From positions 1,716,921 through 1,780,920 of the forward strand of contig NZ_CP031413.1 in NCBI RefSeq assembly GCF_003367355.1: a DNA stretch of 64,000 bases, in the 5' to 3' direction. The position numbers and the translations under genes are program-made. Below are positions 916 through 2,182 of this stretch, in pieces (position 1 is the first letter of the stretch; the number at the start of each line of letters is the position of its first letter). Under the pieces are notes generated by a model. It did no database searches. It worked only from the letters and a program-made list of their open reading frames with translations, and was not told the origin of the DNA. Origin of the DNA: Lysobacter sp. TY2-98 (GTDB taxonomy: Bacteria > Pseudomonadota > Gammaproteobacteria > Xanthomonadales > Xanthomonadaceae).

Positions 916-931
916 CCGCCCCTAGAAACAC

Positions 932-956
932 GAAGCCCCGCACGCGGCGGGGCTTC
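932..956. terminator. Bidirectional hairpin between the membrane-protein gene and dksA
   Basis: GAAGCCCCG at 932-940 pairs with CGGGGCTTC at 948-956 around a 7-base loop. Two convergent genes end at 915 (+) and 979 (-), so the hairpin can serve both. No long T-run follows on the plus strand; on the minus strand the stem is followed by GTGTTTCTA. It is a reasonable but not strong intrinsic terminator. Confidence 0.5.
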
Positions 957-978
957 GATGCGTCCGGGTGACGCGGCG

Positions 979-2112
979 TCAGTCGCCCATCTGCTTCTGC
1001 AGGTGCTCCCAGCGCTCCTGCGCGTCGATCGTGCGCTCGGCGGTGAGACGTGCCTCGAGGCGATCCAGGCCGATTTCCTCGCCCGTGTCGGCGCAATAGC
1101 CATAGTCGCCCGAGTCGATGCGCTTGAGCGTGCTGTCGATCTTGCTGATCAGCTTGCGGTAGCGATCGCGCGTACGCAGCTCCAGCGAGTTCTCGGTCTC
1201 CCGCGTCGCGCGCTCCGCTTCGTCGCCGACGTCGCGCACTTCCTCGCGGAGGTTCTCGATCGTCTGCTTCGACTCCTCGACCAGGTCGCCACGCCAGGAC
1301 AGCAGGCGCTGACGGAAATACTCCAGCTGCAACGGGTTCATGTACTCCTCGTCCGCCTTCGGCTTGTAGCCATCGGGGACGATCGGACGACCCGTCGCGT
1401 CATCGGTGCGGTACTCGGGCATGCGACGCGGGCCCGTGTGCGCCGCGGTATTGCCACGACCTGCCGCCACGGCGACGGCGACCTTGCCACTGGACGGGCG
1501 CTGGACCACGGCGGCGACGGCGCCACCTGCGGCTGCGGCGGGGGCCGCGGCGCTCTTCTTGTTCGTGCTCTTGCTCATCGACTCCACCTGCAGGGACGGG
1601 CGCGCCGCGGTGCTCGCGGTCGACGTCGTCCCGTTCTTCAACGCGCCCGCCGCAGCACCGGTTGCACCGGACTGCGTCGGACGTTCATTCGTGCTGGCGC
1701 GCGAAGCCGGTGCCGGGGCGGCGGGCTTCGCAGCCGGCGTGGGCTGCTTCTTCGGTGCGGGTGCCGGTGCGGCCTTCGTCGTCGCGGGCTTGCGCGCGGC
1801 CGCCGCTTCGACGCGCGGCGGCGCCTTCGCGGGCGCCTTCTTCGCCGGCGCCTTGGCGACCGGTGCGGCCTTTTTCACCACCGGCGCGACCTTCTTTGCC
1901 GGTGCAGCCTTCTTCGCAGGCGCCGCCTTGACCGGCGCCTTCTTGGCCGGAGCAGGCTTTGCCTTCGGCGCGGGCTTGGCCGGCGCCTTCTTTGCGACAG
2001 CCTTTTTCGCAGCCGGCTTCGCCACGGGCTTCGCGGCCTTCTTCGCGGCCGGCTTTGCTGCGGACTTCTTGGCCGGCGAGGCGGCCTTCTTCGCGGTCTT
2101 CTTTGTCGCCAC
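979..2112 (-). CDS. dksA: DksA-family RNA polymerase-binding protein with a long H1-like N-terminal tail
   Basis: This 377-residue protein is far longer than the 151 residues of E. coli DksA. Residues 1-135 are almost entirely K, A and P in repeats such as AKKAAPAKK, like histone H1 or AlgP tails; 136-256 is a low-complexity linker. Residues 257-377 form the DksA domain: [10 protein letters not shown], a coiled coil, then [12 protein letters not shown] and [16 protein letters not shown]. Only Cys340 remains of the four zinc-finger cysteines (CADT and TIDA replace CxxC pairs), as in zinc-independent DksA types. The coiled-coil tip reads DEAERA, so the usual DxxDxA is DxxExA. The GTG start at 2112 has AAGGA 9 bases upstream. 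An ATG at 1578 (Met179) has its own AGGTGG 5 bases upstream and may give a 199-residue form. The role, ppGpp-linked control of transcription initiation, comes from the family. Confidence 0.88.
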
Positions 2113-2152
2113 GAGCGCCTATCCTTCTTCCCTTGAGGCGGGAAAGCGCGCT

Positions 2153-2182
2153 GTTATACCCTGCCCGCAAGTGCTGCGGCAA
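2153..2182 (-). promoter_or_regulatory. Candidate sigma-70 promoter of dksA
   Basis: Read on the minus strand, TTGCCG (2182-2177) and TATAAC (2158-2153) are 18 bases apart, which fits -35 and -10 boxes. The predicted start near 2146 leaves about 34 bases before the GTG, including the AAGGA ribosome site. The same AT-rich spot could act as a -10 for a plus-strand promoter (TTGAGG at 2133, TATACC at 2155) toward yidD. The assignment is by motif only. Confidence 0.4.

Follow-up and report, generated by a model that had tools for sequence, protein, structure and literature searches.

A DksA with a degenerate zinc site, a glutamate at the coiled-coil tip and an H1-like N-terminal tail in Lysobacter sp. 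TY2-98 and its closest relatives

DksA helps RNA polymerase respond to starvation and is the textbook case of regulation at the polymerase without DNA binding. In Escherichia coli DksA, the coiled-coil tip variant D74N is inactive and the carboxyl charge of the tip is held to matter (PMC7461557), and K139 contacts a phosphate of ppGpp in site 2, whose residue set (R91, L95, K98, R129 and K139) we adopted from PMC7676912. Pseudomonas aeruginosa has an additional DksA copy, DksA2, which is produced when the cells are starved of zinc (PMC9213440). Myxococcus xanthus CarD joins an RNA polymerase-binding domain to a basic, disordered, histone/HMGA-like tail that binds DNA; beside that domain a basic disordered tail, even that of H1, is sufficient, and tail loss lowers activity without abolishing function (PMC8156234). 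AlgP and PhaF of Pseudomonas also carry long disordered K/A/P tails; fragments of the AlgP tail, like KPAA peptides, bind DNA, and AlgP associates with polyphosphate granules, the spacing of which requires the tail (PMC9239181).

DksA of Xanthomonas appears in print with a longer start and, for X. citri, with a 'zinc finger domain' (PMC5559785, PMC6804348). In X. euvesicatoria 85-10 the protein was detected at 256 amino acids versus 147 in the old annotation, which misses most of the extension; peptides fell within the extension, start-codon mutagenesis pointed to translation from the first GTG, and the study also reports a processed form of DksA (PMC5559785). In X. citri, DksA acts as a repressor of tRNA and ribosomal-protein genes and its effects overlap in part with those of ppGpp; the ΔdksA mutant no longer causes canker symptoms and has slower growth in XVM2 medium, complementation being made with a plasmid that holds the entire coding region and promoter (PMC6804348); these mutant data indicate that a close relative of the protein described here acts as a DksA. 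In the accessible portions of the two texts we found no comment on H1-like composition or missing cysteines, and a literature search that left most subscription journals outside its scope listed no paper recognisably about either feature in the DksA of Lysobacteraceae. Zinc-independent DksA, H1-like tails and the N-terminal extension of Xanthomonas are known already; their combination in a large clade, a nearly order-wide D74E and the GKVAVAV motif described below were not found in the literature covered by that search.

The window analysed here is a stretch of 64,000 nucleotides from the genome of Lysobacter sp. TY2-98, in which the minus strand encodes a tailed DksA with the following parts.

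979..2112, minus strand: dksA, 377 amino acids, GTG start at 2112-2110 and stop at 981-979, comprising tail and DksA domain.
2122..2126, minus strand: Shine-Dalgarno-like AAGGA, from the upstream sequence of the window and of relatives.
1708..2112, minus strand: K/A/P-rich polycation part, residues 1-135, with 36 Lys, 85% K+A+P and AlphaFold pLDDT mostly below 50.
1438..1707, minus strand: second, Lys-poorer tail part, residues 136-225, delimited by Lys per block, with pLDDT mostly below 50.
1468..1488, minus strand: GKVAVAV motif, residues 209-215, within the predicted disordered tail, from an alignment of 81 sequences.
1345..1437, minus strand: linker, residues 226-256, with conserved columns and pLDDT of 86-87 in blocks 231-250.
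982..1344, minus strand: DksA domain, residues 257-377, above the cut-offs of TIGR02420, PF21157 and PF01258 and with a sequence match to 1tjl.
1207..1224, minus strand: coiled-coil tip DEAERA, residues 297-302, in which E300 aligns with E. coli D74.
1018..1095, minus strand: degenerate zinc site C340, T343, T361 and A364, with Q365 at E. coli K139, by alignment to E. coli numbering.

A reading made from the sequence only had placed a DksA domain at residues 257-377, and profile searches confirm it: the domain scores 143.6 bits against the curated DksA model TIGR02420 (cut-off 115.5), 96.3 bits against the coiled-coil model PF21157 (DksA_N; cut-off 27) and 33.3 bits against PF01258 (zf-dskA_traR; cut-off 24.9). 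Apart from the two DksA models, a Pfam scan of the whole protein at E up to 1 returned two weak DUFs and nothing else, including no folded domain of the AlgP or phasin type and no CarD_CdnL_TRCF domain (PF02559). E. coli DksA (1tjl) was the best match in a PDB sequence search (E 6.9e-29), followed by P. aeruginosa DksA2 (4ijj; E 1.9e-18); fold comparison was of little help, as 4ijj (Z 8.8) and 1tjl (Z 7.7) were equalled in Z by unrelated helical proteins. The Lysobacter protein shares with E. coli DksA the coiled coil and globular domain together with D71, A76, R91, L95, K98 and R129, but differs in keeping one of four zinc cysteines, in D74E, K139Q and F82N, and in having 256 residues before the domain rather than 30.

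The gene is the single recognisable dksA of the genome. A PF21157 search of the 3.16 Mb single contig matched it alone and found no second DksA_N protein; a check for another DksA had been proposed with the sequence-only reading. Although the protein resembles P. aeruginosa DksA2 in lacking a C4 site, no C4 DksA was found beside it in the DksA_N search of the genome, so that it does not have the status of a DksA2-type backup; DksA2 moreover has a C-T-C-A site, an Asp at the tip and Lys at position 139, whereas the Lysobacter protein is the only DksA found, has C-T-T-A and is tailed. The one other PF01258 match in the genome lies in a 140-residue stop-to-stop frame (L001; G000:C1:1515519-1515620, minus strand) with a four-cysteine DksA/TraR-type finger (C-x2-C ... 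C-x2-C) but no DksA_N match.

An internal start, which would make the tail an annotation artefact, was considered and ruled out: 63 of 81 tails are without an in-frame ATG, the GTG with its AAGGA-like sequence occupies the matching position in 80 of 80 relatives under our own start rule, and in X. euvesicatoria the first GTG is the start indicated by mutagenesis (PMC5559785). The tail of Lysobacter sp. TY2-98 itself contains in-frame ATG, GTG and TTG codons. A Met start (MAK... or MAT...) predominates among the tailed relatives from the order's other families, compared with GTG here. The corresponding locus of a related X. euvesicatoria strain (L069) has a GTG start, an extension and 346 amino acids, and its last 256 residues begin at residue 91, within the tail. 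The sequence-only reading had the tail joined to the DksA domain, and a relative supports this: the extension is translated in X. euvesicatoria. A processed variant also occurs there, and part of the DksA pool may lose the tail (PMC5559785).

Homologues were taken as the best 80 of 509 encoding stretches and represent the closest relatives only. They come from Lysobacter, Xanthomonas, Stenotrophomonas, Pseudoxanthomonas, Luteimonas, Thermomonas and a few other genera, with [Pseudomonas] boreopolis and unplaced MAGs also among them; the named genera we take to be Lysobacteraceae. The comparison of tail length and cysteines that had been suggested from the sequence gave a consistent picture in these best 80 of 509: a K/A/P-rich tail of 147-302 residues (median 239.5) is present in all 80, a single Cys remains in the domain of 73 and none in that of 7, the zinc positions read CTTA in 70, SSTE in 7, CSTA in 2 and CTSA in 1, and the tip reads DEAERA throughout.

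In E. coli numbering the zinc positions of the Lysobacter protein are C114, T117, T135 and A138, and one of four cysteines is left, as had been read from the sequence. A canonical zinc-type DksA has four cysteines and a DxxDxA tip, in place of which this protein has C-T-T-A and DEAERA; with its zinc cysteines replaced it belongs to the C-minus DksAs, and we infer that it is zinc-independent. For comparison, 54 DksAs outside the order were assembled from the 30 best-scoring matches in a 140-genome phylum sample, 4 long-frame picks and 20 lower-scoring picks. The first 34, biased towards high model scores (30) and long frames (4), comprised 30 CCCC and 4 CTSA proteins, and the 20 hand-picked lower-scoring ones comprised 15 zinc-less and 5 CCCC. 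Across all 54 (L134-L163, L174-L177 and L214-L233), the 35 four-Cys proteins have Lys139 and the 19 zinc-less proteins have Gln139, a strict coupling that is broken by P. aeruginosa DksA2 (4ijj), which combines C-T-C-A with Lys at 139. Zinc loss with K139Q is thus a widespread DksA subtype, common in other sampled Pseudomonadota, and zinc loss was dropped as a distinctive point, given that 19 of 54 sampled proteins outside the order are zinc-less too. Within the family, R91, L95, K98 and R129 are conserved in 81 of 81 sequences and K139 is Gln in 81 of 81, so four of the five site-2 residues are present and the ppGpp response may differ from that of E. coli. R91, L95 and R129 are invariant over all sets compared; K98 is replaced by Gln in 2 of 18 tailed sequences from the order.

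The tip was read correctly as DEAERA in place of DxxDxA; in E. coli numbering it is D71-E-A-E74-R-A76, with Glu replacing the key Asp (D74E), and both D71 and A76 are conserved in 81 of 81 family sequences. Glu stands at position 74 in all 81 and in 49 of 50 further sequences of the order, which may overlap with the 80 closest relatives, and in 0 of 54 DksAs sampled outside it. D74E therefore marks the order, in which it is nearly universal, and this natural substitution is notable, yet it retains the charge. Could D74E on top of K139Q make DksA less ppGpp-dependent or change its promoter set, with the tail compensating for weaker action in the channel? Such an effect would suit the phylogenetic confinement of D74E and the inactivity of E. 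coli D74N (PMC7461557), but Glu keeps the charge at the tip, K139Q is common (19 of 19 zinc-less proteins outside the order, 0 of 35 four-Cys ones) and DksA and ppGpp effects overlap partly in X. citri (PMC6804348). D74E and K139Q are both found in the order's short DksAs as well, so a tail is not needed to compensate, and we regard this explanation as improbable.

The tail is strongly basic. The roughly 135 residues of K/A/P recognised in the sequence-only reading correspond to residues 1-135, which hold 36 of the 43 tail Lys, with 7 in residues 136-256. The whole extension (residues 1-256) has 43 K and 11 R versus 10 D/E and a net charge of +44, compared with -7 for the domain. Nearly all of residues 1-224 fall below a pLDDT of 50 in an AlphaFold model of low overall confidence (mean 57.6), and this part is predicted to be disordered, low pLDDT being an indirect sign of disorder. 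In composition and predicted disorder the tail is of the AlgP/PhaF type; it differs in being N-terminal, the AlgP and PhaF tails being C-terminal and attached to other folded domains, and in having three KPAA, where AlgP has 25 perfect copies in its main repeat region (PMC9239181).

Over 81 sequences the tail has a net charge of +26 to +68 and a Lys content of 14-27%, and the N-terminal VAxKKxxKK is conserved across the aligned sequences of the family. Tail and domain differ in mean identity (0.50 versus 0.91) and, in 15 related pairs that we chose, in dN/dS (0.10-0.48 versus 0-0.08). Because the tail dN/dS lies at 0.10-0.48 and Lys stays at 14-27% in all 81 sequences despite a GC content of 72% in the tail DNA of the window, the tail is more than a product of chance and is under purifying selection. 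These values bear on a passive role, in which the tail would be a tolerated low-complexity expansion with no specific role, or one in solubility or turnover, and a protease would release a working DksA, with GKVAVAV near the processing site. The processed variant of X. euvesicatoria (PMC5559785), the range of tail length (147-302) and the low tail identity all agree with passivity. Retention of the tail in 80 of 80 closest relatives (best 80 of 509), the Lys content, the dN/dS values of the 15 chosen pairs and the conserved VAxKKxxKK argue the other way, and we consider a passive tail possible but doubtful.

Each residue of GKVAVAV is retained in 89-98% of the 81 aligned sequences amid a fast-changing stretch; the exact motif occurs in 65 of 81, 46-49 residues ahead of the domain, and four sequences (L024, L029, L054 and L071) have nothing resembling it. 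Exact copies also occur in two relatives from another family of the order, f3 (L087 and L092). As it lies outside the well-predicted part of the model, GKVAVAV can be read as a candidate short linear motif, either a partner or a processing site, and may be connected with the processed form of DksA known from Xanthomonas. A bolder extension, which we hold to be quite improbable, is that DksA in the order is a chromatin-bound transcription factor whose H1-like tail surveys the nucleoid and that processing near GKVAVAV switches between tethered and free forms during starvation.

The tail has a narrower distribution than zinc loss or D74E. In a survey of 151 genomes of the order, with a stop-to-stop DksA frame of at least 300 amino acids as the criterion, such frames occurred in 62 of 63 genomes of five families (f1, 25 of 25; f12, 24 of 24; f2, 3 of 3; f3, 9 of 10; f5, 1 of 1), the tenth f3 genome having no DksA match above the cut-off, versus a single genome among the 88 of f4 and f6-f11, 78 of which contain a match that exceeds the cut-off. 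The 18 genes fetched from f1, f2, f3, f5 and f12 have K/A/P-rich extensions, and short DksAs are those of the other families, where they serve as the DksA, so the tail is not required for DksA function as such. Among the matches listed for the 140-genome phylum sample, frames of at least 300 amino acids belong to four f1 genomes, G166 and G169; the extension of G166 is not K/A/P-rich and that of G169 is. The family of G169 (f16), another gammaproteobacterial family, was followed in 40 genomes with 30 genes fetched (L184-L213); its sequences look like Burkholderiales, presumably. The best-matching DksA there is zinc-less (CTSA) with a DPADRA tip in 30 of 30 fetched genes, 8 of which have at least 25 Lys before the domain in K/A/P-rich extensions. 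The N-terminal extensions of f16 are very variable in length, with a recurrent linker like KKDPKLANNWKTK...LTDAEVLAMPDSE. Since K/A/P tails also occur in f16, they either arose more than once or come and go.

The sequence-only reading had treated tail, zinc loss and tip as one joint peculiarity, and here it has to be revised. Zinc loss is seen in 19 of 54 proteins outside the order and D74E in short DksAs; the tail is therefore a separate feature, and the three traits are separable, zinc loss being common outside the order, D74E nearly order-wide and the tail narrower. Strict confinement of tails to zinc-less DksA was also rejected, as the CCCC-type L148 has a moderately K-rich frame extension of 134 residues; another CCCC-type protein, L143, has one of 51 residues.

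We favour, at a probability of about one half, a zinc-independent DksA whose predicted disordered polycation tail binds DNA and tethers the protein near RNA polymerase and promoters. The coiled coil would enter the secondary channel of the polymerase, with the tip carboxylate provided by Glu in place of Asp, and together with ppGpp would shift the stability of promoter open complexes. The 135-residue K/A/P polycation and its flexible spacer would be disordered and bind DNA irrespective of its sequence, in the way of AlgP/PhaF-type and histone H1-like tails; the tail would thereby keep DksA on the nucleoid, near promoter-bound polymerase, raise its local concentration and possibly contact promoter DNA from the mouth of the channel. 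Nucleic-acid binding and tethering are what we infer from composition, predicted disorder and precedents, all of which fit a tail acting at DNA. By analogy the protein may work like CarD, with which it shares the plan of an RNA polymerase-binding domain and a basic tail; CarD differs in its unrelated CarD_CdnL_TRCF domain, which binds the beta subunit, and in its C-terminal tail with AT-hooks and an acidic region (PMC8156234).

The tail might instead bind another polyanion, such as polyphosphate, ribosomal RNA or nascent RNA, and so connect the protein with starvation stores or transcribing complexes instead of promoter DNA. The comparable KPAA tail of AlgP is needed for polyphosphate granule spacing (PMC9239181), and lysine-rich stretches bind polyphosphate strongly, but the two positive targets of P. 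aeruginosa have nine Lys in 20 residues, four of them in a row (PMC12077175), and the Lysobacter protein has no run of three Lys. We consider this reading unlikely; it and DNA tethering are not exclusive, because the AlgP tail also binds DNA.

Three more K-rich H1-like frames lie near positions 2437037, 2412881 and 586052 of the same contig (L178, L180 and L181; G000:C1); they have many R and T residues and fewer P than the DksA tail. With these present, the cell may already have what it generally requires of a protein of this kind. That the tail replaces a missing H1-like protein was rejected on these three frames and on the HC2 model PF07382, which matches 98 of 151 genomes; the PF07382 search does not discriminate, since matches occur in tailed and tail-less families alike, and many of them sit in frames with stops.

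In the sampled relatives, which include crop pathogens (Xanthomonas) as well as Lysobacter, DksA is zinc-less, has D74E and bears a histone-like tail, so conclusions from E. coli on the zinc finger, tip chemistry and ppGpp site 2 are not simply transferable. As D74E occurs naturally, what the tip carboxylate does can be tested directly, and the occurrence of basic DksA tails in two groups raises the question of DNA tethering for a channel factor. The tailed, zinc-less arrangement, found in all sampled close relatives, may hold the regulator close to DNA.

A predicted promoter precedes the gene, and a terminator-like element follows it.

2153..2182, with the discriminator to 2146, minus strand: predicted promoter TTGCCG-18-TATAAC with AGCGCGC after it as GC-rich discriminator, from the conserved upstream pattern.
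931..957, minus strand: terminator-like hairpin of 11 pairs past the stop codon, from a hairpin scan.

A generic promoter scan did not report TTGCCG-18-TATAAC. Of 80 upstream regions, 70 contain TATAA[A/C] and a GC-rich discriminator at a distance of 46-55 nt from the start (shuffle mean 0.035), a count that shows conservation and not 70 independent events, since the relatives share descent. Eight of the ten regions without the pattern (L009, L012, L013, L015, L022, L023, L025, L027, L054 and L080) have a different upstream stretch. Promoters that DksA and ppGpp inhibit typically have a GC-rich discriminator, so the upstream sequence makes self-repression of dksA likely. The hairpin scan gave 5 terminator-like sites in the region, compared with a shuffle mean of 2.2.
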